Below are positions 12,651 through 63,471 of a DNA stretch of 64,000 nt, piece after piece. Made by a program: the position numbers and the translations under genes. This DNA comes from Aldrovandia affinis (taxonomy: Eukaryota > Chordata > Actinopteri > Notacanthiformes > Halosauridae). How positions within the stretch are numbered: position 1 is the stretch's first letter; each line of letters starts with the position of its first letter. Below the pieces are notes generated by a model that had not been told where the DNA came from, did no database searches, and worked only from the letters and a program-made list of their open reading frames with translations. The stretch is from contig JAINUG010000053.1 of assembly GCA_029706075.1 (NCBI GenBank), positions 868,001-932,000 of the forward strand. Reading direction: 5' to 3'.

Positions 12651-12799
12651 GTGGCTCTGTGGCTCAGTTGGTAGAGCACGGCGTTAGCAACGCTTAGGTT
12701 GTGGGTTCAATCCCCACTGGGGCCACAAATACTGAATGCATTCACTACTGTTAGTCGCTTTGGATAAAAGCGTCTGCTAAATGGCATATATTATATATT
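12651..12799 (+). repeat. Short tRNA-derived SINE, AACAT duplication
   Basis: The head GTGGCTCAGTTGGTAGAGCA and B box GGTTCAATCCCCAC are tRNA-like. The tail is GTCGCTTTGGATAAAAGCG. The flanks are AACAT (12646-12650 and 12800-12804), and the L1 frame resumes exactly after the second copy. A second member lies at 35842-35990 on the minus strand. Confidence 0.85.
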
Positions 12800-13409: not shown

Positions 13410-14580
13410 ATATGTATTTTTTAAAACTTTTTCTTCAAAGAAAAGAGTCACAGCAATCGTTATAAGTAAACATGTACCGTCTATTTTTGGTCAACATGTC
13501 ACAATTCCGAACGTTTACGCTCTGAATGAGGATTCCCCGGAGTTCATGTCTGAAATAGTGTTACTGTTTAACTAGCAGTTACAGTTAAACTAGGCTTTCT
13601 CGCTGGTGACTTCAACTGTGTTTTAGACTATACTCTGGACAAATCTTCAACTGCTGCAGTTCTGGATCTTCATCCACTCTTAAAAGCATATGCAAAGACA
13701 CCAGTCTTACCGATGTCTGGAGGGAGTGAAACCCCTCAATTAGGGACTACAGTTTCTACTCTAACCCCCATGCTTCTATTTTTATGCCATGTAACTACAT
13801 CCATACTGTGCAGTCGATATAAATTTGGATTCACCGCTACAGAGAAATACGTTTTGGAGATTGAATCCTTCCCTTTTGTAAAATTCAGGGTTCTGTGATC
13901 TAGTACAATAGTGGATAATGCAGTATCGTGAGACCAATGAAGGCTCCTCTGTATCACCTGCAACCATGTTGGACGCTGGCAAAGCAACTATACGTTGGCA
14001 TATTATTTCCCACGTCATTACAAAAAAAACTGTTGGTGCAAAAGAGGTAAGACCAAGAGTCAGAGATATTACGATTAGAGAAACTACATAAAAACACACC
14101 ATCCCGTTTCAATTGGGCAGCACTTTGTAAATCTAAAGCTAAATTAAGCCTAGATCACACCGAACATATTAAAAAGCTACAGCTTTTTTCTCAACAGAAA
14201 TATTATGAATATTGCATATTACTCGCACACCAATTAAAGAGGGAACAGAACGAAATATCTATTTAATCAATAAAGTTAGCGGACAGTTCCAACACTTATG
14301 ATCCTGTTCTTATTAATAAAATATTTAAAGAACTATAATTCCCTCTATAAATCACAAAGCACAGCCTCGAAAGATGATATAATATCCTTTTTGGATGAGC
14401 TGTCACTTCCTACTGTTTCAGATGAGGACAGAACCATTCTTAATGCACCACTCTCCCCAGAAGAGGTTTTAAATGCAGTTCAGTCAATGCCCTCCAATAA
14501 GGAGTTTTATAGGAAATTCAGCCCATACTGTTGCCAGTTCTTCAAGACATTTTTTAATAGGAGTCAATAACTGAAACTTG

Positions 14581-15213
14581 TGTGGCAGCCCAAAGGGTTG
14601 CACCAGAAAATGGCTGCCTGGCCTCCAACACATGGCAGCCATTTTCACTACATTTCCCAGCATGCCACCGCAACACCTGAACGAAGTCAGGCATGGGGAG
14701 CTAACGACCAGCTGAAAGCCATTTTTAAGGCCTATTTAAACGGCTGAATCCCATTGTTCTGCGATAGGAGTAGGAACGTGTTTGGGGAAGAAGTGCGGTG
14801 TGTTTAGAGAGAGAGAGAGAGAGAGAGCGAGAGAGCGAGAGAGCGAGAGAGCGAGAGAGCGAGAAAGAGAGAGAGAGAGAAACCTGTGGAAGTCGTGGAC
14901 CAGCCAGGATTTGGAGAGCGTATTGGAGTGTGTTTGTTTGTTGGAAATCGGATTGTTTTGGACTTTGACTACGGACTGGATTGCAGACTACGAACTGGAT
15001 TTTGGACATTGGAACGGACTTGGACAACGAGATAAGGATTGTGGACTTTGTTTGTATTCCCCTGAAGACCCCACCCTTTGTTTCGTGTTGCCCTTGTTCG
15101 TGTGATAATAATAAATTATCATTTTTGTTCATATTACTGCCTCCTCTGTGTTCTTACTTGCCTACGCCCCCTGCAAGGTCCGTGAGTGTCGCCCAACCCT
15201 TGGGGACGCCACA
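14581..15213 (+). repeat. 5' LTR of the captured-gene element
   Basis: The 633-bp LTR has a GA-rich tract at about 14810-14880, longer than in the 3' LTR. It has an AATAAA polyadenylation signal near 15110 and ends GGGGACGCCACA. Arginine/glutamate-rich ORFs across the GA tract are low-complexity artefacts. Confidence 0.92.
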
Positions 15214-15215
15214 TA

Positions 15216-15232
15216 TGGTGGAGAATGCGGGC
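15216..15232 (+). promoter_or_regulatory. Candidate primer binding site
   Basis: TGGTGGAGAATGCGGGC begins two bases after the 5' LTR, where reverse transcription is primed by a tRNA 3' end in LTR retrotransposons. A nearly identical sequence follows the LTR at 59588-60196 (60198-60214). I could not assign the tRNA. Confidence 0.6.
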
Positions 15233-15302
15233 AGAGGGCAGCACAGATAGGCAAGAGGAGGTAGTGCAGCAGGGTTTGTGTTTCGTTTGTGCAACGGACT
15301 CC

Positions 15303-16465
15303 ACGATGGAAGAGATGCAGAGACTGAAGAGACGGGCAGCCATGGTGGAGGACCGATGGCGTGTCACCCTCCGTGAGGTCCAGCAGCTGAAGCAGAGTGC
15401 CCAGATTGAGCTGTGCAAGGCAAAGGTGGAGTTGAACACCTCAGAGGAGCGCCACCTGCTGGCAGTGATGAAGTTGCAAGAGGAGCACCACATGGACTCC
15501 CTGAGAGTGCTGGGAATCATGGGTGGGGAGCTGGAAAAGGAGAAGGCATCCCTTGGCGATGAGATGAGGCGTGTAGAGTCCCACAACTTGGCGCTCAAAG
15601 AGCAGGTGAGAAACCTAACCCACAGGCTTGAGAATGAGCAGCGACAGTGTCTGGACATGCAGGAGTCCCAGGACCAGGCCACAGATGAGTATGCCAGGGC
15701 CTTGGGGGATGCACAGACCAGGCTCGCCCAGAAGGAGGCAGAGCTAAGGAAAGCAGCGGAGAACCATGCGTCCGAGGCGGAGCAACTCCGGTGCCGAGTG
15801 GAGCAGGAGAGCAGGGATACGCACCAGGTCGAGGCCAACGCCCTGCGGGAGCAGCTGGCCCAGCTGGAGAAGAGCGTGGAGTAAGAAAAGGCCCAGAACC
15901 AGGAGCTACAGACCAAGCAGGAGAAGCTCCTGGCCCAGAGAGATGACGTCAGCTCCCAGCTGCAGGAGGTGAACCGCGCCAACAGCCGGCTCCTGGAGCA
16001 GCTGACTGAACGGGGCCAAGAGAAGGACAAACTCCAGCAGGAGCTGGAGGCGACCAGGAAGACGGCGGACAAGCGCAAGGCCATGCTGGACGAGCTGGCC
16101 ATCGACGTGGCGCAGGAGAAGTCGCGGCACAAGGAGGAGCTGAGCGACGCGTGGCTGCAGCATGAGAAGGAGGTGCTGGGCGTGCGGGCGCGCTACGAGA
16201 AGGAGCTGCGCGGCCTGCACGAGGACAAGAACCGCACCGAGGAGGAGATCCGCTCACAGCTCCGCGCGACGAGAAGGCCCGCACTGGGAGCTGGAGAGCC
16301 TACAGCAGACGGTGGAGGAGCTGCAGGCTCAAATCCAGTCCATGGAGGGCACCAAGGGATGGTTCGAGCGCGGACTCAAAGAGGCGGAGGAGACGGCAGA
16401 GAAGAGTGCGCTGGAGCACCAGGAGCAGGTCCAGAAGCTGCAGCTGGAGCAGACCGCACAGCTTC
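15303..16465 (+). pseudogene. GRIPAP1: Captured coiled-coil ORF, GRIPAP1-like, with stop and frameshifts
   Basis: The frame starts at Met 15303 (MEEMQRLKRRAAMVEDRW) and is almost entirely Leu/Glu/Lys/Gln heptad-like coiled coil. From about 15940 the residues resemble the middle-to-C-terminal coiled coil of GRIPAP1 (GRASP-1), an endosomal protein that binds GRIP1 and Rab4. Examples are [58 protein letters not shown] and [14 protein letters not shown]. No intron interrupts it, although host genes of this kind are multi-exon, which suggests an mRNA origin. A TAA at 15882 and a frame change near 16265 break it. The N-terminal 190 residues are coiled coil that I cannot assign with certainty. GRIPAP1 identity is from memory, not from a search. 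Confidence 0.75.
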
Positions 16466-17404
16466 AGGGGGAAAATGGCGGAGATAGAAGCCCAGCAGCG
16501 GGGCACAGAGAAATCCTTTCGCGAGGTGTTAAAAATCCAAACTGAGACTCTGCTGGATCTACAAAATCAACTGGACGAGGTGAGCAAAGAACTTGAATAT
16601 TTAAGATGTGTTCCGGTCAAGAGAGATTTTGGCACGCAGGTGGAGATCTCGCAGCCAGTGGAGCTGGCAAGGGATAGATGGTCCTCAGTCCCACTCAGCC
16701 TGCCGGATCTTGGAGGAGAACTGGAGGAGCAATTTGTAGAGGATGAGCTATGGTGGGACCATGGCGTGGAGGAAAGCCTCTTGGCGATGGATGAGGTCAG
16801 GTGGGACACCCAACCATCTCCTGACGTGGTAAGTCCATCTCCCTCACTAACCTTAAAAAGACAGAGAAGAATGGAGCACAGAAATTCTGGTCGGAAGAAA
16901 AACGGGAAACGGAACCGGCAGATGATGGAATGGGATGACCCTAGGAACTGGCTAGGGAAGGGGGATTTTAAGGAAAATGTGGAAAATGAATCAAAGAATA
17001 AAAGTAACAGTGTTGTGAAGAGCATGTTTTCCCCAGTCACCCCACCTGACCCCCTGAAAGGAAAAGGGACGTGGAAGAAAAAGCCAGAGAATGGACTAAG
17101 GAAGGAAATGCTGCACAGGGTTCGCTGGAGGAGCCATGGAGGGCTGGTGAGGACCAGCGCAAGGGCGGTAACCATTCCGTCCGTGGACCCCAGAGCCAGT
17201 ACCCACCTATGGCCAGGTGGTGGCAGACAAGGTGAGCGACTTTCGCCATTTCCTAACGGCTTGCAGATGCTTTTTCAGGCAACCGGAGACTGGGGATTCT
17301 GGACGTTTGACCCAGGGGGGACACTTCCTGAGTGGACCTGGAGAGGGGGACCCTCCTGGTGGCCGCTGGACATAGGCCGCTCAGCCCTCCCCGAGGTCAG
17401 AGCT
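16466..17404 (+). pseudogene. Unassigned downstream ORF of the captured-gene element
   Basis: From about 16470 a different frame is open to the end of the internal region; it continues into the 3' LTR and stops at 17584. It begins with more coiled coil (EVLKIQTETLLDLQNQLDEV) and then becomes acidic and tryptophan-rich (VEDELWWDHGVEESLLAMDE). A basic patch follows near 16870-16930 (RRMEHRNSGRKKNGKRNRQM). It ends with a Gly/Pro/Trp-rich part (WRGGPSWWPLDIG). I recognise no domain. It may be further captured sequence or a remnant of the element's own gag or spacer. Confidence 0.5.
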
Positions 17405-17417
17405 GAGGAGGAGGGTG
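17405..17417 (+). promoter_or_regulatory. Polypurine tract
   Basis: GAGGAGGAGGG immediately precedes the 3' LTR. This is the position and composition expected of the plus-strand primer of LTR retrotransposons. Confidence 0.7.
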
Positions 17418-17642
17418 TGTGGCAGCCCAAAGGGTTGCACCAGAAAATGGCTGCCTGGCCTCCAACACATGGCAGCCATTTTCACTACATTTCCCAGCAT
17501 GCCACCGCAACACCTGAACGAAGTCAGGCATGGGGAGCTAACGACCAGCTGAAAGCCATTTTGAAGGCCTATTTAAAGGGCTGAATCCCATTGTTCTGCG
17601 ATAGGAGTAGGAACGTGTTTGGGGAAGAAGTGCGGTGTGTTT

Positions 17643-17681
<39 letters not shown>

Positions 17682-18026
17682 GAGAGAGAGAAACCTGTGG
17701 AAGTCGTGGACCAGCCAGGATTTGGAGAGCGTATTGGAGTGTGTTTGTTTGTTGGAAATCGGATTGTTTTGGACTTTGACTACGGACTGGATTGCGGACT
17801 ACGAACTGAATTTTGGACATTGGAACGGACTTGGACAACGAGATAAGGATTGTGGACTTTGTTTGTATTCCCCTGAAGACCCCACCCTTTGTTTCGTGTT
17901 GCCCTTGTTCGTGTGATAATAATAAATTATCATTTTTGTTCATATTACTGCCTCCTCTGTGTTCTTACACTTGCCTACGCCCCCTGCAAGGTCCGTGAGT
18001 GTCGCCCAACCCTTGGGGACGCCACA
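17418..18026 (+). repeat. 3' LTR of the captured-gene element
   Basis: The 609-bp LTR is nearly identical to 14581-15213. I see only a handful of substitutions (for example GCAGACTA versus GCGGACTA near 17795) and a shorter GA/GC tract at about 17644-17690. It carries AATAAA near 17920 and ends GACGCCACA at 18026, followed by the CTTG duplication. Confidence 0.92.
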
Positions 18027-18030
18027 CTTG

Positions 18031-19872
18031 GAATACGGCCTCCATTTTGTTATTAAAGAAGGATAAAGATCCACTCGATTTTAGTTGGTATAGGCCCATA
18101 CGCTTACATTTGTATTGTAAAGTAATGGCTAAGGTACTTGACACGTAGACTAGAGGTTATTTTGTTTAAGATTATTAAACATGATCAGACAGGGTTTGTA
18201 CAATCCCGATTTGGATCAGACAACTTGCGTCGCCTACTAATATTATGGACTGTTACCAGAAATCAAAAACCTTCACTTATAGTCTCCCTCGATGCTGACA
18301 AAGTGTTCGATAGGGTGGAATGGGATTTTCTTTTTGCCATCCTGGACAAATTTAATTTGGGTCCAATTTTTACCAATTTAGTCAAATTACTATACCTTAA
18401 CCCCCAAGCTGTGGTGACCACTAATGGCCTCCCATCCAACAGTTTTAAAATTGGCAGGGGCACAAGACAGGGCTTTCACCCCTTATTTCACCCCAGCCAT
18501 AGAGCCGCTTGCTGAGGTCCTAAGGACTAATCCAGGTTTCTCTGGTATTACGGTGGAGGGGGAGGAGCACATAATTTCACTATATGCTGCTGATGTTCTA
18601 CTGTACATAACCCACATGGAACAGTCAGTCCCTGTAGTGTTGGACAGTATTTCAGCATTCTGTCAGGCTATACAATTAACAACCAAATCTCTTGCATTAC
18701 CTTTACATTTTCCTTCCACTTTATTATCGCCTTTTCACCTAATTCAGGATGGATTTAAATACTTTGGTGTTTTTGTTACCCCTGATCTGAGAAACCTTTT
18801 CAGTAAAAACGATCTCCCTACAAGGCTCGCTTAAATAATTGGTGTTCTTTACCTATATCCTTGCTTGGTCGGATCAGTGTAGTTACAATGAATATTCTTC
18901 CTCGGTTACTTTATTTATTTCAGTCATTGCCCTGCTGCATACCCCCGTTTTTTGGAAAGAATGAAATAGTAGTTTATCAAAATTAATTTGGAATGATAAG
19001 AAACCGAGGATGACATTTACACAGTTACTGAAACCAAGGGCGATGGGAGGCGCCAGGGTACCAAATCTACAATTAGTACATATTAGTACATATAAGACAT
19101 ATTAGTGTGCCCAGATAAGGCATATGTTTAGCTGGTGCACTAATAGGAGAGATTCCCTCTGGCTTAATATGGAATCAGTCCCTTGCCACCCATTGCCTAT
19201 AGGTTCACTACTTTTCATTAACAATACAAAACAATTGAAGGACGTATTAAATATCTTTGTGTTACACAATACACTCTTAACCTGGAGAGATATAAGAACC
19301 CATCCTAAAATACCCAACTGTCTTTCTATGCTGTTTTCAGTCGCTGCTAACCCTGATCTCCCCCTTCAACTACAAAATATAAGGCTCTCAGGCTGTTTCA
19401 GGAAGGGCATTTTGAATTTCGCTTGCCTGTTTTCAAAAGATGGTTTAAAATCTTTTCAGCAGATTCAGAATGAAAAAGATATACCTAAATCTGAATTCTA
19501 TAGATTTCTTCAAATATATTTTATTTCATGCATTGTTAAGGACAATAGTCTATGGCTTGAGGTGGCAGAAATTGAAAGATTTTTAGTAACACTCCCCAGT
19601 TCCAGAGAAATGATATTGAGAATATATAACATTTTATGCAATGCTCATACCTCACCCTATACAGCCATAAAAAACGTTTGGGAACAAGACCTTGACTGTA
19701 CATTTAGTGAGGAGGATTGGCTCATAGTTTGTGAAAGGATATATTCTAAATTCAATTCAATATGCATGAGCTTAATTTTAAATTCTTCAGTAGGCTTTAT
19801 CTAACTCCAGTGCATCTTCAAAATATATTCCCAGATACATCCAACCTGTGTTATAATGCTGTTCCCCTAAAG
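18031..19872 (+). pseudogene. L1/Tx1-like ORF2: reverse transcriptase and C-terminal region
   Basis: Frames 18138-18515 and 18424-18834 carry HDQTGFVQSRFGSDNLRRLL, IVSLDADKVFDRVEWDFLF (the first catalytic Asp block), and NGLPSNSFKIGRGTRQG. In place of the usual FADD-type motif there is LYAADVLLYI (about 18580-18610), where the paired aspartates have decayed to AAD. Frame 19124-19804 is the C-terminal region with WLEVAEIERFLVTLP and AIKNVWEQDLDCTFSEEDW. Frameshifts and the altered active site mean the enzyme is dead. The C-terminal region is cut by the hAT hairpin at 19873. Confidence 0.85.
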
Positions 19873-27639: not shown

Positions 27640-28430
27640 ATGGACAGAGTTCAGTGGTAGTGGAGTCTGAAGAGGTGGGTTTTGAGTCTCTTGCGGAAGA
27701 TCGCAAGTGATTCCGCGGTCCTGACCGATTGCGGAAGGTCGTTCCACCAGCGAGGGATCAGGACAGAGAAGAGGCGAGACCGCGAGGAGCGGCTGCCAGA
27801 CGCCCGGAGGGAAGGGACAGTCAGTTTACCAGAGGAGGGCGGAACGGAGGGGTCTGGGAGGGGTGTAGGGAGTGATGAGTGACTGGAGGAAAGGGAGCAG
27901 TACCTCTGGCCGCTTGAAAAGCAAGCACCAGTGATTTGAATCTGATATGTGCTGCGATGGGGAGCCAGTGCAGAGAGGAGAGTAGAGGGGTGACGTGGGT
28001 GAACTTCGGCTGGTTGAACACCAGACGAGCGGCAGCATTCTGGACTAGTTGCAGTGGCTTGATGACACAGGCCGGAAGGCTTACCAGCAAGGAATTGCAG
28101 TAGTCCAGACGTGAGATCACCAGGGCCTGGACTAGGAGTTGAGTGGTCTCTTGGGTGAGGAACGGTCGGATCCTCCGGATGTTGTGGAGGGAGAATCGGC
28201 AGGTCCGAGTGATCGCTGCAATATGGTTCGAGAAGCACAGCTGGTTGTCCAGGGTCACTCCAAGACTCCTGGCAGACTGGGATGGAGACACTATGGAGCC
28301 TTCCATGATTGAAGCATCAATCATGGGGTAGCCCTTCGCTGGGAGGAAGAGTAGCTCAGTATTCCCCAGGTTCAGCTTCAGGTAGTGGGTGGACATCCAG
28401 GCAGAGATGTCAGGCATACAGAGATCCTTG
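27640..28430 (-). pseudogene. L2 reverse transcriptase, C-terminal half
   Basis: The frame 28417-27821 reads MPDISAWMSTHYLKLNLGNT, LLFLPAKG, ARSLGVTLDNQLCFSNHI, VISRLDYCNSLL and LQLVQNAAARLVFNQPKFTH. LLSSLHWLPIAAHIRFKSLV, the typical L2 thumb and C-terminal segment, follows. A frame change then leads to SRLFSVLIPRWWNDLPQSVR and FRKRLKTHLFRLHYH near 27651. The reverse transcriptase active site lies just upstream. Confidence 0.9.
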
Positions 28431-28459
28431 CCGGGACCTGCGTCTCAGATGGAGAGAAA

Positions 28460-29080
28460 GAGTTGAGTGTCGTTAGTGGTAAGAAAAAACATGAGCAGAA
28501 CCAAGTGACTTGGTGTACAGAGAAAATAGGACTGGGCCTAGCAGGAGCCCTGCGGGACTCCAGTAGAGAGGGTGTGAGGAGAGGAGAGGGATCCTCTCCA
28601 GGCCACCTGGTAGGACCAGTCAGCTAGGTAGGACTTGAATCATGTCAGTGCAGATCCAGATATTCCCATCTCGATGAGAGATGAGAGCAGGATCTGGTGG
28701 TCCACAGTATCAAAAGCAGCTGACAGGTCACGGAGGAGGAGAATGGAGCTAAGGGATTGGGACTTAGCCATTTGAAGAGCCTCAGTGACCGCCAGGAGAG
28801 CAGTCTCTGTGGAGTAGCCTGCTCTGTACCCAGATTGGTTGGGATCAAGCAGGTCATTCTGTAAGAGATGAGCAGACAGTTGGTTATAGACAGCCCACTC
28901 TAACATTTTGGAAAGGAATGGGAGGAGAGAGACAGGTCGGTAGTTTGAGATGACAGCAGGATTTAGAGAGGGTTTTTTGAGGAGGGGGACAACATGAGCG
29001 CATTTGATGGAAGAGGGGACAGAGCCAGAGGAAAGAGAGGAGTTAATGACATTGGAGACAAAGGGGACGATGTCCACAGC
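28460..29080 (-). pseudogene. L2 reverse transcriptase, N-terminal half with altered active site
   Basis: The frame 29077-28640 reads VPSSIKCAHVVPLLKKPSLN, ISNYRPVSLLPFLSKMLEWA, NQSGYRAGYSTETALLAVTE and LLRDLSAAFDTVDHQILL, where the first catalytic Asp is present. Near 28465-28490 the expected YADD motif reads as TTND before TQLFLS, so one of the paired aspartates has become Asn. Frames are shifted around this site. The enzyme cannot be active as it stands. Confidence 0.85.
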
Positions 29081-29550
29081 AATGGACTGGAAGAGGGTGG
29101 AAGGAATGGGATCAAGAGGGCAGGTGGTGGGATGGTGGGAGAGGACAAGTTGAAGGATGTCTGAGTCAGGGAGGGGCGAGAAGGAGGACAGAGGGGTGAG
29201 AGGTTTAGGTAGCGAGATGGGTGAGGGAGTGGTTGGGGGAAGGAATTACGAATGACATCGACCTTCTCCTGAAAGAATGATGCGAAGTCATCCGCGGTTA
29301 GAGAGGAGGGGGGAGGGGGAGGAGGAGGGGTGAGGAGAGAGGAAAACGTAGAGTAGAGTTTACGAGGGTTAGAAACCGAAGATTTAATTTTGGAAAGGAA
29401 AAATGCAGAGTGGACGATGCCTCCTCAGCAGGTAGGTGAGAGAAGGCATCAGTAGGGGGAAGGGAAGTTAGAACAGTAGCTGACAGGGCAGCGGGGGAGA
29501 GAGAGCGGAGGTTGCGATGGACAAGAACAGTGGGAGCAGGTGAGGATGGT

Positions 29551-30377
29551 TTAGGCACAGAGGGGAGGGGGAGGGGAGAGACAGAAAGCAATGGTCAGAC
29601 AGTCACCGAGGAGTAAGACGGGGGTGCCATCCTCAGTGAAAGCGCTGAGTAGGGCATCCATCTCATCTAGGAAACTCCCTAGTGGACCTGGAGGGCGATA
29701 AAGAACAATGATGTGCAGTTTACATGGAACAGTGACAGTGACAGCATGAAATTCAAAGGAGGTGGGTGAGAAGTGAGGAAGAGGAACAATACCAAATTTC
29801 CACAGGGGGGAGATCAGTATACCTGTCCCTCCACCTCTACCTGTGGGTCGTGGAGTGTGGGAGAAGGTGTAGGCAGCGGAGAGAGCAGCAGGGGTGGCCG
29901 TGTTCTGCGGAGTGATCCACGTCTCCGTGAGCGCCAGGAACTGCAGGGAGAGTAGGGAGGCCTGGGCCGAGATGAAATTGGCCTTCCGGACAGCGGACTG
30001 GCAGTTCCATAGTCCGCCTGCTACCACCACGTCAACACCGGGAGATCTAGGAGGGAGGATGATATTGGAGAGGTTTTAGGTGTGAGTAGAATCTTTTCTT
30101 CTAGGCAATCTAGAAGAGGAGACATGGACTGGGATAGGGAGGTAGCATGTAGTGTCAGATGCAGAGGAAGAACAGGGAGAAAAATTATGATACTTACCGT
30201 ACGGCGAGCACTCCCTAGCTGGCCCCCCTCGGTGGACTCCTGTAGGTAGACTCCTACGTCTTTGTCCACCGAGTCTTTGTACTCCTGCAGGTAGACTCCT
30301 ATGTCTTTGTCCGCAGAGTCTTCATCCGGGGAGGCTAGGAAGGTGAGGCTGCCGTGAAAAGCTTCCGCTTTCCACAA
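29551..30377 (-). pseudogene. L2 ORF start and endonuclease domain
   Basis: An ORF beginning at Met 30377 (MWKAEAFHGSLTFLASPDED) contains a 15-residue duplication (DSADKDIGVYLQEYK and DSVDKDVGVYLQEST). It runs into another frame encoding the endonuclease: WNCQSAVRKANFISAQASLL, LQFLALTETWITPQN with the catalytic Glu, GGGTGILISPLWKF, LHIIVLYRPPGPLGSFLDEM and PVLLLGDCL. In the last, the usual GDFN/GDWN Asp remains but the following residues are lost to a frameshift. Proline-rich frames follow. Confidence 0.8.
30236..30325 (-). repeat. 45-bp tandem duplication in the L2 ORF
   Basis: Two 45-base units (30236-30280 and 30281-30325) are nearly identical. They encode the two copies of the DS.DKD.GVYLQE motif, so the duplication keeps the frame. 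Confidence 0.85.
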
Positions 30378-35647: not shown

Positions 35648-36127
35648 TAAGAGGTGGTCTGGGTGTACCAAAATGCGAACAACGAAACTTGCACAGTGCC
35701 AAATGTTTTCATTGGCACACGCCCCATTGCGCTGCCCAACCCAACCCATGTTGACGCAAATGCCTTTATTGCCAGTTTCGTCTGTCGCAAACGGAATATT
35801 CCCCATCTCCGCCGAGTTTGGCAATTTCGTGGTGCGCAGTAATATATGCCATTTAGCAGACGCTTTTATCCAAAGCGACTTACAGTAGTGAATGCATACA
35901 TTTTCAGTATATGTGGCCCCAGTGGGAATTGAACCCACAACCTAAGCGTTGCCAACGCTGTGCTCTACCAACTGAGCCACAGAGAACCACGGCTCTGAAG
36001 TGAAGATGTTTGCGCGACTATGGGTTGGGCAGCGCGATAGGGAGTGTGACAATGAAAACAGTCGGGCGCTATGCAAATTTGGTGTCAAATAATGAGTTTG
36101 CATTAACGTCCAACTAGACCACCTCTT
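35648..36127. mobile_element. MITE with AAGAGGTGGTCT ends, carrying a SINE
   Basis: The left end reads TTAAGAGGTGGTCTGG. The right end at about 36114-36127 reads AGACCACCTCTTAG, its reverse complement. A nested SINE lies at 35842-35990. The left about 110 bases are repeated at 37182-37288. There is no coding sequence. Confidence 0.65.
35842..35990 (-). repeat. Short tRNA-derived SINE (second member)
   Basis: On the minus strand the head GTGGCTCAGTTGGTAGAGCA, the B box GGTTCAATTCCCAC and the tail GTCGCTTTGGATAAAAGCG match the SINE at 12651-12799. It is a repeat, not a tRNA gene. Confidence 0.85.
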
Positions 36128-49167: not shown

Positions 49168-49815
49168 GTGAGAACTCGACTGCTCCGCGTGAGTAGGCGA
49201 GGAAGACGGTGCCAGAGAGCTGTGATGCGTGGATGAAAAGGGACATCACCACATCAGCGCGTGCATCTGCTAGCAGCTACGGCAATCTACACATCAGTGC
49301 AAGACACAGCGCCCACGGGAAGGTCCAGGTGCCCTAGTAGCGTGAATTAAGCTGCAACCAAGAGACTTTGAGTGTTCTGCACAAGAGACATTGATACATT
49401 TATTGCATTTCACATAACAAGTTAATGTTGTTTACTTACCCTTCTAACTGAAGTTTATTGAAGTTCGTTGATATTGATATTGTGTTTACTTATGGGTATG
49501 CTGTAAATATTTCCTAAGAACTAGTAGTACTAAGAGTAAAGCAGAACTAGTAATATAGTGCATTTAAAGGTGAATGATATTACTTAATGAGTGTACAAGT
49601 TTATCTAAGAGTTAATATTTTTGTTTGTCATTTGTGGGGAGTGTACTTAAGTTTAAATAGTTTTAAATAAAGCTATAACAAATAGGTCAAAATAGTGTTA
49701 TTAGCTGCAATTAAGCTTAGGCTACATTAGACCTAACTTATACTACTGTAAATTAGGTAATTACTCAGCTAAAGTAAAGATTAGATTTAAACCAAACTAA
49801 AGTAAATGAAGTAAA
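49168..49815 (+). other. BEL/Pao leader between LTR and gag
   Basis: There is no coding here. The sequence after the LTR (GTGAGAACTCGACTGCTCCG) should hold the primer binding site, but it does not begin with TGG and I could not assign a tRNA. The rest is AT-rich. Confidence 0.6.
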
Positions 49816-52800
49816 ATGTCAGAGCTTGAGGATGTCAGAGAGGGTCTGCCAGAGTCTTCCTCCGAGAGTGACAGAGAGGGTGTAGATGAAGATGCGCAGC
49901 AGCACTGCACAGACATGCAACCACGAGCGACCGAAGGCACAGGAGCTGATAACCACGCTTCCTCACAAGAGCCACAAAGAACCCCAAGAGTCCGCAAGTT
50001 AACGGAAAAGGGCCAAGAACTGCACGATGAGCAAGTAAGAAGATTTGCACACCGTTTCAGTGTGAGCTATGAGAAGTGGAAGGCTATCACTAAAGACGCC
50101 CAACAAGCGCTGCGTGGACATTGCTCAAACAACCTGCTGCATGAACACATCACAAAGGTAGACGACGCCTCAAAACATCTGAACCTTGTTTATGAAGACT
50201 TAAGGCGCATTGACATTCCCGACCATGACACACGTCGCAGAATAGACACCTGTGAAGCAGTAACAAGGATGATCATCGAGACTGCAAGAGGTCGTCTAGA
50301 CACAAGAGAGGGTGAAGGTCAAGGGGATGAAGAGCAAGACTGGAAAGAGACAGCATCTGTATTCAAGTCTGCAGCCTCAGACAAATTAAGCGTCAACTCT
50401 CACCGCGCCAAGTCCTCCACTCATTCTCGAAGCAACTCAAAGGCCACATCCAGACGTTCAAGCCACAGACAAGAAGCTGCTGCTGAAGTTGCTGCCAATG
50501 AAGCCACTTTAGAAGTACTGCTAGAGCAAGAACGTCATATTGAAGAACTTCAAAGACTCGAAGCCGAAGCTGCCCATTTACGAGCCAAACAAGAGGCCGA
50601 AAATGCGGAGAGACAAAGAGCGCTAGAAGCCAAGCGCAGACAAGTAGAGCGGCTGGAGACGATTAAGAAGCTAAAGGCTGCCAAGGCGCGACAGCAAGTA
50701 TATGATCAGAGTGGATGCTCAGATGAAGAAATAAACGAGCTGCTCCATCAACGTGTCTCTCTGAAGGAGAAAGAGAAAGTCAAGCATGAAAGCAGCCCGT
50801 TGCAGCACCACTCTCCACCACAAGCTGTGACACATCCAAAGCAAGAAGACAGCACGGCAGCTCTTGTTAGAGCGTTCGCAGAGTCCATCAGTGCGAGTCG
50901 TCTTCCTGTACCTGAACCAACAACGTTCAATGGCGACCCACTCAGATTCAACGACTGGAAGGTTTCCTTTCAGACACTCATTGACAGGAAAAACATACCA
51001 GCTGAAGAAAAGATATACTATCTGCGAAAGTACATAGGTGGACCTGCCAAGAAGGCCATAGAGAGCTACTTCCTGCTAGGCACAGAGTCAGCCTATCGTG
51101 CAGCGTGGGCTATCCTAGAAGAGAGATATGGCAATCCATTTCTCATCGCCAAGGCCTTCAGAGACAAGCTCGATGCATGGCCCAAGATAAGCTCCAAAGG
51201 CAGTGTGGAACTTCAAGAACTCGCTGACTTCCTTCGCAGCTGTGAGGCTGCCATGTCTCAGATAAGAGGTCTTGAGGTACTCAACGACTGCAACGAGAAC
51301 CAGAAAATCCTTGCTAAACTTCCAGACTGGCTGACCTCAAGATGGAATAGGAAGGTCATAGAAGTGGAAGAACAAAGTCACACGTTCCCAAGCTTCAGCC
51401 AGTTCGTCAAGTTTCTCACACGTGAAGCCAAAATCGCTTGCAACCCAATAACATCTCTCCACGCTCTAAAACCAAGCGAAAGCGAGAAGATCAAGGTTTC
51501 AAAGAACAGAGGTCCTGGAGCAAAGGTACTGGCAACCAACTCAGATGAGAAAGCTGTCTCTACAAGCTGTGTCTTCTGTGAGAAGGCAGGTCACAGTCTA
51601 CACAAGTGTCGTAAATTTATGAATGAGACAATCTTGGAGCGAGTCAAGTTTGTTCAACAGACGAAATTGTGCTTCGGCTGTCTTAAGTCTGGCCATCGCT
51701 CAAAGGACTGTGAAAACAGAAAGATCTGTGATATGTGTGAGAAAGGACATCCGACTTGCCTCCACGATAATCGCACCAAGGAAGAAAGGATGTCAACCAG
51801 GCCTGATGGAGCGAGGGACAGTGACAAGTCAAAGGAAAGGAAGATGGAACGCCCACAAAATAACCCAGCAAGAACATCAAGTGAGGCAACATCGCATAGA
51901 GTCATCCAGAATGTCAAAGACACTCATACGTCCACAATCATTCCAGTGTGGGTGTCAGCCACAAGTGAGCCAGATCGTGAAGTTCTTGTGTATGCACTCC
52001 TCGATACACAAAGTGACACAACCTTTATCCTTGAAGAAACAGCAAAGCCTCTCCACACGAAGAACGAACCAGTTCAGCTAAAGCTCTCCACAATGGCTTC
52101 AAGAAACATAGTCGTGTCCTGCCGGAAACTAACTGGTCTACAAGTGAGAGGATTCTACTCAGACAAGATAATCCCTCTGCCAGTGACCTACTCAAGAGAA
52201 TTCATCCCTGCAAACAGAGATCATATTCCCACACCAGAGACTGCCAAGGCATGGCCTCATCTTGAACACATCGCAGATGAGATCGCTCCTCAGCAAAGCT
52301 GTGACGTCGGCCTGTTAATTGGCTACAACTGTCCTCAAGCTCTCGTCCCAAGACAAGTGGTGTCTGGTGAAGAAAACCAGCCCTTTGCACAGAGAACAGA
52401 CTTGGGCTGGAGTGTAGTCGGCTATGGCAACCCATGTCTCGACTATGGAGACGCGATTGGAGTAAGTCACCAAGTCATCGTGAAGCAAGTGATGCCAGGT
52501 CTTCAGTCCTCTTCAAACCTCACAAGCGAAGTGCACTATGTCTGTAGAACACAGATCAAGGAAGTAGTCTTACCTGCAGATGTCATCAAGGTGCTGGAAT
52601 CTGACTTCGTTGAAAGAGCTTCAGAGGACAGCCACATGTCTCAAGAGGATCTCCGATTCCTGTCAAAGATGGAGAAGGGCATCAGGCTCAAGGACGATGG
52701 TCATTATGAAATGCCACTGCCATTCAAGAAAGGAAGACCCAACTTACCAGATAACAAGGTATGTGCCATCCACCGTCTCAGATGCCTAGAAAGGAAGCTG

Positions 52801-53007
52801 AAAGGAAATGAACAATACCACAAAGACTACAAGACCTTCATGGACGAGACCATAACCCGCGGAGATGCAGAAAGAGTCCCAGAAAAAGACATCAGCAAGA
52901 CTCCAGCATGGTACATCCCACACCATGGGGTGTATCATCCACAAAAGCCTGGGAAGATACGCGTCGTCTTTGATTGCTCCGCTCAAAGTTTAAAGAGACA
53001 TCCTTGA
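49816..53007 (+). CDS. BEL/Pao polyprotein, gag to start of reverse transcriptase
   Basis: This open frame of 1063 codons starts at Met 49816. Residues 1-340 are charged, with a Glu/Arg-rich coiled coil (about 230-310). Residues 365-560 match the gag-like DUF1759 (PEPTTFNGDPLRFNDWKVSF). Two zinc-knuckle-like groups follow at about 585-650 (CVFCEKAGHSLHKC and CFGCLKSGHRSKDC). The retropepsin-like active site reads VYALLDTQSDTTFI near 727. The DTQS form, instead of DTG, needs noting. The frame ends inside the reverse transcriptase, right after KPGKIRVVFDCSA (about 1040-1058), where a frameshift gives a premature stop. The polyprotein forms virus-like particles and processes itself in known BEL elements. 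Confidence 0.92.
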   Translation: MSELEDVREGLPESSSESDREGVDEDAQQHCTDMQPRATEGTGADNHASSQEPQRTPRVRKLTEKGQELHDEQVRRFAHRFSVSYEKWKAITKDAQQALRGHCSNNLLHEHITKVDDASKHLNLVYEDLRRIDIPDHDTRRRIDTCEAVTRMIIETARGRLDTREGEGQGDEEQDWKETASVFKSAASDKLSVNSHRAKSSTHSRSNSKATSRRSSHRQEAAAEVAANEATLEVLLEQERHIEELQRLEAEAAHLRAKQEAENAERQRALEAKRRQVERLETIKKLKAAKARQQVYDQSGCSDEEINELLHQRVSLKEKEKVKHESSPLQHHSPPQAVTHPKQEDSTAALVRAFAESISASRLPVPEPTTFNGDPLRFNDWKVSFQTLIDRKNIPAEEKIYYLRKYIGGPAKKAIESYFLLGTESAYRAAWAILEERYGNPFLIAKAFRDKLDAWPKISSKGSVELQELADFLRSCEAAMSQIRGLEVLNDCNENQKILAKLPDWLTSRWNRKVIEVEEQSHTFPSFSQFVKFLTREAKIACNPITSLHALKPSESEKIKVSKNRGPGAKVLATNSDEKAVSTSCVFCEKAGHSLHKCRKFMNETILERVKFVQQTKLCFGCLKSGHRSKDCENRKICDMCEKGHPTCLHDNRTKEERMSTRPDGARDSDKSKERKMERPQNNPARTSSEATSHRVIQNVKDTHTSTIIPVWVSATSEPDREVLVYALLDTQSDTTFILEETAKPLHTKNEPVQLKLSTMASRNIVVSCRKLTGLQVRGFYSDKIIPLPVTYSREFIPANRDHIPTPETAKAWPHLEHIADEIAPQQSCDVGLLIGYNCPQALVPRQVVSGEENQPFAQRTDLGWSVVGYGNPCLDYGDAIGVSHQVIVKQVMPGLQSSSNLTSEVHYVCRTQIKEVVLPADVIKVLESDFVERASEDSHMSQEDLRFLSKMEKGIRLKDDGHYEMPLPFKKGRPNLPDNKVCAIHRLRCLERKLKGNEQYHKDYKTFMDETITRGDAERVPEKDISKTPAWYIPHHGVYHPQKPGKIRVVFDCSAQSLKRHP

Positions 53008-55937
53008 ACGACCATCTCCTGACCGGTCCAGAGTTGACAAACAGCTTGGTGGGAGTCCTATGTCGTTTTCGAAGTGGTCCTGTGGCGATCATGTGTGACA
53101 TAGAACGCATGTTCCACCAGTTCCATGTGAAGGCAGAAGACCAAGATTACCTAAGATTCCTGTGGTGGGAGAATGGAGATCTTGAAGCCCAACCTTCCAT
53201 CTATCGGATGAAAGTCCACCTATTCGGTGCAGCTTCATCACCTGGCTGCGCCAACTATGGACTCAAGCACCTCGCAGCCGAAGGAAGAGGACACTTCAGT
53301 GAAGACACCATCAAGTTCATTCATAGGAACTTCTACGTTGATGATGGCTTGTCAAGTGTAGCGTCCAAAGGCCAAGCAATCCAGCTAGTGAAGGAAGCAA
53401 GAGAACTGTGCAGGACAGGCAAACTCCGGCTACACAAGTTCATCTCCAACAGCAAGGAAGTCCTAGCCGCCATTCCCAAAGAAGAATGTGCTGAAGCTGC
53501 CAAAGACCTGGACATGGCACTGGGTGAACTACACATGGAAAGAGCACTCGGCGTACAGTGGTGTGTAGCTTCTGACGAGTTCCAGTTCAGAGTGGTCGTA
53601 AAAGAAAATCCACTTACCCGAAGAGGAGTCTTGTCCACGGTCGCTTCAGTATACGATCCACTCGGATTTGTGGCACCCTTCATCCTGGTTGGAAAGCAGA
53701 TCCTGCAGCAGATGTGTCGTGACAAGCTCAGTTGGGATGACGCCTTACCTGATGACCTTCGACCCCTGTGGGAATTCTGGCTCCAAGACCTGCAAAACCT
53801 GGCTGGTGTTAAGATCAAGAGATGCTACATTCCATCAAGCTTCGAGGTTCAGCGCTATGAGCTCCACCATTTCTCCGATGCCAGCGTGTCAGGCTATGGA
53901 GAGTGCTCGTACCTCAGAGCAGTCAGTGCATCGAATGAAGTCCACTGCTCCTTAGTCATGGGAAAGTCAAGAGTCGCCCCCACTAAGGTTACAACCATAC
54001 CAAGACTCGAGCTGTCAGCAGCAGTGGTGGCTGTCCGCACCAGTGACATGCTCAAGAAAGAACTGGAAGTAGATTGCCTGCGAGAATTCTTCTGGACTGA
54101 TTCAAAGGTTGTGCTTGGATACATCAATAATGAAGCCAGAAGATTTCATGTGTACGTAGCAAATCGCGTGGAACACATCAAACAAAGCACAGAGTCTGCG
54201 CAATGGATGTATGTGGCTTCTGGAGAAAATCCAGCAGATCATGCATCAAGAGGTCTCACAGCAGAGCAACTTGTAGCTTCTAACTGGTTCACAGGCCCAG
54301 ACCTTCTTTGGCAGAAAGAGCTACCAAGTGGAGTAGTCAAGGTGGGAGAGATCGCAAGCAGTGACCCAGAGCTCAAGAAGGCCCAGGTTCATGACACCCA
54401 GGCAAAGGAAGTAAGGTCGCTGTTAGATCGTCTACACAAGTTCTCCGACTGGTCAAGAATGGTGAAAGCTATCGCCAGACTCAAGCGCTGGGCAAGGGAA
54501 ACCAAAGGCCTCAAGCCAAGGTCCTGTGAAGCCACCAGTTTAGAGGAAAGGAGGGATGCAGAGCTGACCATAATCAAGATGGTTCAACAAGCAACCCTCT
54601 CTCAAGAAATGCAGTGCATTCAGCGTCATAAGGAGACAAGAATCAAAGACAAGGCCAACAAGTTGCACAAGTTAGGTCCATTCCTGGATGACCAAGGTGT
54701 CCTCAGAGTCGGAGGTCGCTTGACTCATGCTGCCCTACATCCACATGTGAAGCATCCAGCGGTCCTCCCAAGAGACAGTCACGTGTCGGCATTACTCGTC
54801 AAGCACTATCATGAGAGAGTACATCATCAAGGACGAGGAATGACTATGAATGCGCTCCGATCCAGTGGCATATGGATCCTAGGATGCAGCAAGGCAGTAT
54901 CATCCCATATTTACAAGTGCACAACGTGCAGGAAGTTCAGAAGATGCACAGAACAACAAAGGATGGCAGACCTCCCTGAAGAGCGGATGGAAACAACCCC
55001 TCCATTCACTTACTGTGGGATTGACTGCTTCGGACCATTCTACGTCAAGGAAGGGAGAAAAGAGCTAAAACGTTATGGACTGTTACTTACCTGCATGTGT
55101 TCCAGAGCAGTACACATTGAAATGCTCGATGACTTGACCACAGATGCCTTCATTAACGCTCTGCGTTCATTCATCGCCATTCGTGGAACAGTCCGCCAGA
55201 TAAGATGTGATCAAGGGACAAACTTCGTCGGTGCTAGGCGCGAGTTTGTTCAAGCACTGAAAGAAATGGATCAAGAAGAACTCAAAGAACTGGGATGCGA
55301 GTTCATCATGAACATCCCAGCTTCAAGTCATATGGGTGGCGTCTGGGAAAGACAAATTCGCACCATCAGAAGTGTCTTGACGTCCATTCTAGAACAGTCA
55401 GCCAGACAACTTGACTGCTCCTCTCTACGAACATTCCTATACGAGGTCATGGCGGTTGTGAATAGCAGGCCTCTGACCACTGATTATCTGAATGATGCAT
55501 CCAGTCCAGAGCCCCTGACACCAAACCACATCCTGACCATGAAGTCCACGATCCTCTCTCCACCTCCTGGAAAGTTTGTCAAGGAAGATCTTTACCTCCG
55601 CAAGAGATGGCGCCGAGTTCAGCTCTTAGCCAACAACTTCTGGGCACGGTGGAAGAAGGAATACCTCCTAAATCTCCAACACAGACAGAAGTGGATCAAA
55701 GACCGCAGAAACGCAAAGGTCAATGACGTTGTTCTTCTGCAAGATGATGCTACACCACGAAACAAATGGAAGTTGGCAAAGGTTATCGAAGTGTACCCTG
55801 GAAAGGACGGAAGAGTGAGAAGACTAAAGTTGCTTATCAGCGACTCAACCCTGGATGGAAAAGGAAAGCGCATCTCCAAACCTGTTCACCTGGAGAGGCC
55901 CATCCAGAAGACAGTTACACTGTTGGAAGCAGACTGA
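52974..55937 (+). CDS. BEL/Pao polyprotein, reverse transcriptase to integrase
   Basis: This frame of 987 codons continues the previous one after the frameshift. Its first Met is an artefact of frame opening, not a true start. Reverse transcriptase blocks are MCDIERMFHQFHV (first Asp, about residue 42) and NFYVDDGLSS (YVDD, about 120). The RNase H-like region starts at HHFSDASVSGYGECSYL (about 298), with FFWTDSKVVLGYI near 375. The integrase zinc-binding part has HYHERVHHQGRG and YKCTTCRKF (610-650). The DDE core reads YCGIDCFGPFYV, RQIRCDQGTNFVGA and SSHMGGVWERQIR. A DUF5641-like C-terminus (NNFWARWKKEYLLNLQHRQK) ends the protein. All catalytic residues are visible. Confidence 0.93.
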   Translation: MLRSKFKETSLNDHLLTGPELTNSLVGVLCRFRSGPVAIMCDIERMFHQFHVKAEDQDYLRFLWWENGDLEAQPSIYRMKVHLFGAASSPGCANYGLKHLAAEGRGHFSEDTIKFIHRNFYVDDGLSSVASKGQAIQLVKEARELCRTGKLRLHKFISNSKEVLAAIPKEECAEAAKDLDMALGELHMERALGVQWCVASDEFQFRVVVKENPLTRRGVLSTVASVYDPLGFVAPFILVGKQILQQMCRDKLSWDDALPDDLRPLWEFWLQDLQNLAGVKIKRCYIPSSFEVQRYELHHFSDASVSGYGECSYLRAVSASNEVHCSLVMGKSRVAPTKVTTIPRLELSAAVVAVRTSDMLKKELEVDCLREFFWTDSKVVLGYINNEARRFHVYVANRVEHIKQSTESAQWMYVASGENPADHASRGLTAEQLVASNWFTGPDLLWQKELPSGVVKVGEIASSDPELKKAQVHDTQAKEVRSLLDRLHKFSDWSRMVKAIARLKRWARETKGLKPRSCEATSLEERRDAELTIIKMVQQATLSQEMQCIQRHKETRIKDKANKLHKLGPFLDDQGVLRVGGRLTHAALHPHVKHPAVLPRDSHVSALLVKHYHERVHHQGRGMTMNALRSSGIWILGCSKAVSSHIYKCTTCRKFRRCTEQQRMADLPEERMETTPPFTYCGIDCFGPFYVKEGRKELKRYGLLLTCMCSRAVHIEMLDDLTTDAFINALRSFIAIRGTVRQIRCDQGTNFVGARREFVQALKEMDQEELKELGCEFIMNIPASSHMGGVWERQIRTIRSVLTSILEQSARQLDCSSLRTFLYEVMAVVNSRPLTTDYLNDASSPEPLTPNHILTMKSTILSPPPGKFVKEDLYLRKRWRRVQLLANNFWARWKKEYLLNLQHRQKWIKDRRNAKVNDVVLLQDDATPRNKWKLAKVIEVYPGKDGRVRRLKLLISDSTLDGKGKRISKPVHLERPIQKTVTLLEAD

Positions 55938-62442: not shown

Positions 62443-62799
62443 TTAAGTGAGAAATCCTGGGTGGGGCGGGTGAGGGAGTTGGGGCCAATGATGAAGATTA
62501 TTGCAGTTGAGTTTGAGAAAGTTATTTTGCATCCATGTTTTTACATCTGAGGCAGGTGGTAAGGGTGGAATGGCTGCAGTGATGATCTTGGTGGAGAGGT
62601 AGAGTTGTGTATCATCTGTGTAGCAGTGATACCAGAGGCCATGGCAGTGGAGGATCTGTCCAAGTGGTATGATGTACAGGATGAAGAGGAGGGGACCAAG
62701 CACTGAGTCCTGGGGGACACCGTGGGTGGCTGGGGCAGTGGAGGATTTGCAGTTGTTGATGGAGATGAATTGATGTCTGTCGGAGAGATATGATTTCAA
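62443..62799 (-). pseudogene. L2 reverse transcriptase, active-site region
   Basis: The frame reads MKSYLSDRHQFISINNCKSS, THGVPQDSVLGPLLFILYII, then HGLWYHCYTDDTQLYLSTKI and VKTWMQNNFLKLN. The paired catalytic aspartates remain (YTDD). The usual GVPQGSVLGP has an Asp for Gly, which may impair it. C-terminal parts (61900-62440) are frameshifted. The N-terminal part runs in other frames at 62800-63130. Confidence 0.85.
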
Positions 62800-63471
62800 C
62801 CAGGAGAGGGCAGTGCCGGTTATGCCAAGGGAGGACTGGAGGTATGTGATGAGGATGGAGTGGTTGATGGTGTTGAAGGCAGCGCTGAGGTCATGGAAGA
62901 TGAGGATGGAGAAGAGACCAGAGTCGGCAGAGAGGAGAATGTCATTAGTGACTTTTAGTAGAGAAGTTTCTGTGCTGTGTCTGGAGTGGAAGCCAGATTG
63001 GAAAGGTTCATAGAGGTTATTGGAGTCCAGATGTGATTTTAATTGGGAGGCAACAGCTCGCTCTAAGATTTTTGAGAGGAAGGGGAGGTTGGAGATAGGC
63101 CGGTAGTTGTTGGGGGTGTTGGGATCAAGTCTGTTTTTTCTTCAATATAGCAAGCTTTTTTCAGCAAGCTTTAGGGTGGGGGCGACGAAGCCAGTGGACA
63201 AGGAGGAGTTTATAACTTTAGTGATAAGAGGAGAGAGTGAGGGGAGACAAACCTTAACTAGGGTGGAGAGGATGGGGTCCAGGACACAGGTTGAGGTCTT
63301 CCTGCTAATGACTATGGAGGATAGGTCGGATGCGGTAATTTCAGAGAAGGGTGTGAGTGGGTTATTGGAAAGTAGAGGGGAGATGGGTTCTAGACCAGAG
63401 ATGGTGGTGGAGGAGGAAGTGGTCAGTTGGCTGTGTATAGTGTCAATTTTTGTTTGGAAAAATTATACAAA

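Follow-up and report, generated by a model that had tools for sequence, protein, structure and literature searches.

How does a stretch of host coding sequence, free of introns, come to lie inside a retrotransposon that has no recognizable polymerase genes? This question is raised by a complete long terminal repeat (LTR) element at 14581–18026, with an interior of about 2.2 kb, in a 64,000-nucleotide stretch of the genome of the halosaur Aldrovandia affinis, a deep-sea fish of the order Notacanthiformes (GenBank assembly GCA_029706075.1, contig JAINUG010000053.1, positions 868,001 to 932,000 of the forward strand), which is called the window here. Part of the interior derives from GRIPAP1, a host endosome and trafficking protein. 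The best explanation, which we regard as very probably correct, is that a non-autonomous element with a Gag-like protein captured spliced GRIPAP1 sequence of its host by template switching and that the resulting cassette then spread by recombination.

A spliced GRIPAP1 segment and its donor

Protein searches with the open reading frame (ORF) of the element return GRIP1-associated protein 1 from many vertebrates. An earlier, sequence-only reading of the window had recognized this likeness, and the peptides it named lie in the matching part. However, the match covers about 583 bp (15909–16491, forward strand) and not the whole interior. This segment is 96.2% identical to nucleotides 175–755 of the spliced native coding sequence (CDS), corresponding to native residues about 412–605. 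It joins six exons, with the five introns absent, in agreement with the expectation of the same reading that the insert would cross several exon junctions without introns. Compared exon by exon, the interior of the window element matches consecutive native exons at 93–97% DNA identity with no intron between them, and the matches end at exon borders or within 18 bases of them. In another copy, L057, 726 gap-free bases are 97.5% identical to the spliced CDS; this match comprises seven exons, crosses six introns, and begins and ends inside exons. Capture of intron-containing genomic GRIPAP1 DNA is rejected because the segment matches the spliced gene only.

The native GRIPAP1 of the same fish is P0107, whose exons were located with a joined probe on contig C213. 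The exon chain rebuilt for residues 354–629 has introns with GT-AG borders, and at least the first 270 of its 276 residues agree with the annotated protein. Of the proteins compared, P0107 is also the closest to the window segment, with 184 of 193 residues identical. The corresponding number is 165 for GRIPAP1 of Synaphobranchus, 162–167 for three eels, a moray, a tarpon and Scleropages, and lower for the four other fish compared. Because residue identity is higher to P0107 than to the GRIPAP1 of other fish, we infer that the donor was the host's own gene, taken after its line split from the eels.

Scattered GRIPAP1-like matches, two of three with stops, are also found at G000:C769:7664-10630, which is perhaps a decayed GRIPAP1 paralogue. 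In the GRIPAP1 model of Acipenser ruthenus (P0102), the coil region captured by the element is duplicated internally; this is perhaps an effect of assembly or annotation.

Relatives without GRIPAP1 and the two junctions

Putative pre-capture relatives in the same genome allow the capture to be read before and after the event. Five such copies (L060–L064), chosen for divergence or long frames from the 150 places scored in the search with the N-terminal part, have LTRs 78–83% identical to those of the window element, the same leader start and interiors of the same size. Their ORFs are 783, 709, 657, 459 and 773 residues long, respectively, and none of the five has a match to GRIPAP1. A zinc-knuckle motif is present in these relatives. 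The sequence-only reading had placed GRIPAP1 in the position of gag-pol. This view is rejected, because the piece is only 0.58 kb long and forms an in-frame fusion within the coiled-coil ORF that belongs to the element itself, and because these GRIPAP1-free relatives have interiors of the same size, with no pol domain in the ORFs checked.

The element's own coil spans the region from (V/A)EQES.RRELEA to AQQ.A.E in L060–L064. In L056–L059, this coil is exchanged for GRIPAP1, which starts at VESILTENDAL. When the junction bases of the donor are set beside those of four pre-capture and three post-capture copies, the 8-nt GGAGCAGG at the 5' joint and the 5-nt GAAGC at the 3' joint prove to be common to element and donor. 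Both figures are raw lengths, and GAAGC is found at the 3' joint in three of the four pre-capture copies. Both joints fall within exons, and there is no poly-A at the captured piece. Taken together, the pre-capture form, the post-capture form and the donor suggest that the template was switched twice.

In one set of seven loci, all but L056 gave a reading of the 3' junction, which is identical among the six except that L059 is one base off; a second reading, of L056, L057 and L058, gives the same junction in each. The rest of the piece is more variable. Internal parts are deleted in frame in L056 and L058, and other 5' joins are found in L051, L053, L054 and copies of the window type. In the window type, an unrelated coil (RDTHQVEANALREQ...) occupies the place where the first part of the GRIPAP1 piece stood.

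A coil with the sequence RDTHQVEANALREQLAQLEKSVEQ..., in some cases with a second, related stretch after it, replaces the first GRIPAP1 part in the ORFs of L036, L022 and L024 and at about 15790–15908 of the window. The 5' replacement coil of the window subtype may be a second captured piece. Protein searches found no homolog of it outside Aldrovandia, and the best hit of a PDB sequence search has an E-value of 0.11.

Probable single capture and spread of the cassette

The family is large. Candidate places in the genome number 5146 for the LTR, 1534 for the interior, 691 for a 127-residue GRIPAP1 part and 1130 for the N-terminal part; only 40, 40, 150 and 150 of these, respectively, were scored, and hence these counts are a first look. 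The 40 scored LTR places, including that of the window, are 87–100% identical. The 150 scored GRIPAP1 matches are 78–100% identical, and five contain a stop inside the matched stretch; the list is ranked by likeness and therefore favours good copies. As the sequence-only reading anticipated, the insert is present in many copies with different flanks, and it is carried by several LTR lineages. The same reading proposed that spliced host mRNA lies between LTRs. This is so, but the insert is not a lone retrocopy, since it joined a propagating family.

Both ends could be placed in 23 elements, and 20 of these are flanked by an exact 4-bp target-site duplication. The other three are L040 and L046, which stand in tandem after another element interior, and L056, which is unclear; L044, L047, L049 and the C1546 array have no full pair of ends and were excluded from this count. 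Some copies form LTR-interior-LTR-interior-LTR arrays. Interiors are 2.0–2.7 kb long across 17 elements, and open frames of 702–876 residues span the GRIPAP1 piece in several lineages. LTR pairs within elements differ by 0–4% (10 elements); measured against the spread of the family, the insertions are therefore young.

Nine sites differ from native GRIPAP1 in at least 90% of 46 copies, eight of them synonymous and one changing L425 to V. Because of these shared differences and the one 3' junction wherever it was read, all GRIPAP1 pieces would appear to descend from a single capture. Among nine carriers (36 pairs), LTR identity is 0.72–0.94 whereas identity of the GRIPAP1 piece is 0.95–0.99. 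Divergent LTRs with near-identical pieces indicate that the cassette was probably moved across LTR lineages by recombination between element RNAs, which is the simplest account. In a set of 14 representatives, synonymous difference amounts to 0.044 within the piece and 0.037 across the adjoining 90 upstream codons, compared with 0.109 farther upstream and 0.34 and 0.22 downstream. Thus, the young block takes in the coil adjoining the piece.

Structure of the window copy

The window copy lies between two copies of the target-site duplication CTTG (14577–14580 and 18027–18030), and its other parts are all on the forward strand. The 5' LTR (14581–15213, 633 bp) has the form TGTGG...CCACA, and the 3' LTR (17418–18026) is 609 bp long; the two mismatch at 7 of 607 aligned bases and are further separated by 2 gaps. 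A primer-binding-site-like sequence, TGGTGGAGAATGCGGGC (15216–15232), begins two bases past the 5' LTR, and a purine-rich, GA-rich tract (17400–17417) precedes the 3' LTR. The near-identical LTRs, the duplication, the primer-like site and the purine tract reported in the sequence-only reading are thus all present. The position of the primer site is constant in the family elements inspected, some of which have one- or two-base variants. TGGTGGAGAATGCGGGC may correspond to the complement of the 3' end of a tRNA-Ala.

The 5' part of the element's own ORF (15186–15908) is open from the LTR end and is a coiled coil by eye, with a stop at 15882–15884. The GRIPAP1-derived segment follows, and the 3' part of the ORF (16492–17399) consists of a short coil and then a basic, fast-changing region. 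The description of the interior as nearly all coiled-coil coding sequence holds for the coil as judged by eye, but the frame of the window copy is broken by one stop and by frameshifts, some of them within the GRIPAP1 segment. The N-terminal zinc-knuckle part known from other copies is absent in the window copy and its subtype.

LINE-type (long interspersed nuclear element) sequence adjoins the element, with a reverse transcriptase recognized by Pfam at 18126–18512, and open stretches resembling LINE reverse transcriptase by eye lie at 27651–30075 and 62443–63141 on the reverse strand. Two highly similar tRNA-Ala-like matches, at 12653–12726 (forward) and 35913–35987 (reverse), are by eye probably tRNA-derived short interspersed nuclear elements and not tRNA genes. 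A BEL/Pao-type element at 49810–55937 (forward) has two long overlapping open frames of 1065 and 987 residues with DUF1759, Pao peptidase A17 and DUF5641 matches and weak RVT_1 and integrase zinc-binding matches.

Coding content and presumed dependence on other elements

A C-X2-C-X4-H-X4-C motif is invariant in all six aligned N-termini of the longer ORF versions. Pfam gives no match above cut-offs for ten family ORFs (five pre-capture and five post-capture) or for the ORF of L037; there are only sub-threshold matches, such as Rab11-FIP3 at an E-value of 0.0086 for L061. At E-values up to 1, no zinc-knuckle, Gag or pol family is found in the ten ORFs. The ORF pieces of the window, the L037 ORF and the ten further ORFs have no match to retroviral gag, pol or env families, nor, at E-values up to 1, to reverse transcriptase or integrase. 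A PDB sequence search with the N-terminus gives no match, and a protein search with the N-terminal half, among candidates 480–1533 residues long, gives seven matches, all from Aldrovandia. Because a zinc-knuckle motif is present while family searches do not support a Gag domain, the protein is called Gag-like and is not assigned to a named Gag family. As judged from these ORFs, the family is a non-autonomous LTR retrotransposon without recognizable pol.

Stretches of the element ORF or of its GRIPAP1 piece also occur in Aldrovandia gene models with doublecortin, methyltransferase, plectin-like, GalNAc-transferase and myosin X N-terminal domains (P0101, P0103, P0104, P0105 and P0036). These models are likely to be annotation fusions or exonised copies.

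Tests for selection on the backbone and on the captured piece

Between lineages, the median ratio of non-synonymous to synonymous divergence (dN/dS) is 0.38 for the N-terminal part (26 pairs), 0.55 for the backbone coil (65 pairs, range 0.33–1.72), 0.41 for the coil after GRIPAP1 (53 pairs) and 0.78 for the basic tail (54 pairs); the pairs, drawn from 12 copies where codons and divergence sufficed, are not independent, and the copies used for the backbone tests were mostly picked for long frames. When non-synonymous to synonymous changes (N/S) are compared with a neutral expectation matched for the kinds of change, the ratio is 0.52–0.69 in the N-terminal part (P below 0.05 in three of four pairs), 0.57–1.07 in the coil (four of seven) and 0.51–0.76 in the post-GRIPAP1 coil (two of six). 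The basic tail gives 0.85–1.11 in four much-differing pairs and lower values, 0.45 and 0.52, in two pairs that differ little, with P below 0.05 in none of the six. The backbone ORF thus shows moderate purifying selection. Such constraint makes it look like a real element protein.

A first N/S count of the upstream coil and of the GRIPAP1 piece, based on uniform expectations, gave about 0.5, compared with 0.7–1.4 in the two other sense frames. However, the antisense frame rc+1 is as low as the true frame (0.43–0.75), making this a weak control, and the first 30 copies were drawn from a protein search that ordered its matches by similarity to the GRIPAP1 part of the window, which biases them against non-synonymous change. 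The codon counts leave out the duplicate loci L010, L012, L028, L034 and L035 as well as L001–L008. Once the kinds of change are matched, the piece has an N/S of 0.84 of the neutral expectation for singletons (P 0.24) and 0.71 for shared changes (P 0.14). Neither value is significant, and selection on the piece is therefore not claimed. The near-fixed class has one non-synonymous to eight synonymous changes, which partly reflects constraint on the native gene.

Of the 46 copies, 22 have a stop or frameshift in the piece and 24 have neither. The ratios, together with these 22 damaged copies, agree with the view that the piece is neutral cargo hitch-hiking on a successful LTR lineage. Set against this are the in-frame fusion, the open frames of 702–876 residues that include the piece in several lineages, and the in-frame internal deletions of L056 and L058. 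We give neutral cargo somewhat less than an even chance; it is compatible with the capture history and competes with the functional reading only. The functional reading, namely that the captured host coil is a working part of the Gag-like protein and that the cassette spread by recombination because it helps propagation, is tentative and on balance rather unlikely.

Alternative origins and the proposed history

Other origins of the piece fit the evidence less well. If the interior coil were an ordinary Gag coiled coil, its likeness to GRIPAP1 would be generic, and the flanking parts of the ORF are indeed the element's own coil and align only loosely to GRIPAP1. However, the 93–97% DNA identity to native exons with matches ending no more than 18 bases from their borders, the long gap-free match of L057 to the spliced CDS and the lack of any match in L060–L064 leave this idea with almost no credibility, and the exon-by-exon DNA match refutes a chance coiled-coil likeness. 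A processed GRIPAP1 copy made by a LINE could have been brought between LTRs later by insertion or rearrangement, and a LINE-type reverse transcriptase does flank the window element. But the piece is internal and in frame, has neither mRNA end nor a poly-A tail, and takes the place of a defined part of the element's coil, with short runs of common sequence at the two joints; for these reasons a LINE-made pseudogene is highly improbable and is rejected. Several independent captures of GRIPAP1 mRNA by different LTR lineages would explain the low divergence of the pieces, and carrier LTRs as little as 72% identical with pieces 95–99% identical would be expected from them. The one 3' junction in the loci read and the nine differences shared against the native gene nevertheless make repeated capture improbable.

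Several points weigh against a single template-switching capture by a Gag-like element. L061, a pre-capture copy, has CAAGC instead of GAAGC at the 3' joint. The pre-capture copies are five of 150 scored places, chosen because they are diverged and, in most cases, because they have long frames. The native gene may have acquired some of the nine shared differences after the capture, and gene conversion between copies is another possible cause of the low divergence seen in the cassette. The protein is called Gag-like on the strength of one zinc-knuckle motif with no Pfam or PDB match behind it, and no pol-bearing helper was found among the family members seen, so that supply in trans is assumed by default.

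Capture by template switching followed by recombination would have proceeded as follows. The ancestral element would have encoded one Gag-like protein with a zinc-knuckle motif (in the longer versions), a long coiled coil and a basic tail. While one ancestral element RNA was being reverse-transcribed, the enzyme would have jumped to spliced GRIPAP1 mRNA of the host at the shared GGAGCAGG, copied seven exons and returned to the element RNA at the shared GAAGC. About 240 host codons would thereby have taken the place of some 50–70 codons of the element coil with the frame kept. Later deletions and replacements would have altered the piece, on its 5' side in the window version and in its middle in L056 and L058, and recombination between element RNAs would have brought the cassette to several LTR lineages. 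Movement presumably depends on the reverse transcriptase and integrase of another element.

Relation to known systems

Plant TR-GAG elements are non-autonomous LTR elements with a Gag-like main ORF and without pol. The Aldrovandia family is similar in lacking recognizable pol and in having a putatively Gag-like main ORF, but differs in its animal host, in the fused piece of a host gene and in that its Gag label is a zinc-knuckle motif only. The capture itself would be of the kind known for retroviruses and other LTR elements. LTR-mediated retroposition, as cited in excerpts of PMC8232201 and PMC5408686, involves template switching at short shared sequence and often copies partial mRNA. The Aldrovandia piece resembles it in having spliced, partial mRNA sequence between LTRs with short homology, but it is an in-frame internal fusion in a propagating family, and pre-capture relatives of that family are found alongside it in one genome. 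The closest vertebrate precedent found is the capture of KIT ligand by CrocERV29 and of nectin3 by CrocERV31, two crocodilian endogenous retroviruses, for which an excerpt of PMC4299795 reports purifying selection on the captured frames. They, too, are vertebrate LTR elements present in many copies, and the host mRNA that they captured retains open frames. In contrast, according to the same excerpt, retroviral genes are present in them, and what was captured either adds a cytokine or takes the place of env, whereas the Aldrovandia element has no recognized pol or env before or after capture, and its host piece sits within the main coiled-coil ORF. Maize Bs1 (PMC5408686, in part) and the LTR-retroduplicated NLR genes of pepper (PMC5664825, in part) are also LTR elements with spliced host sequence, but in plants, with other host genes and at another position in the element. 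The LTR elements of bdelloid rotifers carry extra modules common to several retroelement lineages; these are separate ORF3 genes beside gag and pol in the excerpt of PMC5408684, unlike the internal cassette described here. Among the matches listed in the open-access literature, there is no description of the Aldrovandia family or of GRIPAP1 capture.

Significance

In our reading of the cited papers, host gene capture by LTR elements is usually met as end products. In this vertebrate genome, the donor and the apparent pre-capture, post-capture and later altered forms are found together, with hundreds of candidate copies. As a result, template switching, cassette exchange and the question of cargo versus function become testable by counting. 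There is also a warning for annotation, because the ORF of the element turns up in many "hypothetical proteins" of Aldrovandia as well as in some named gene models. If the functional reading is true, a host protein architecture would have been recruited into the structural protein of a retroelement, with the states before and after recruitment preserved in one genome.

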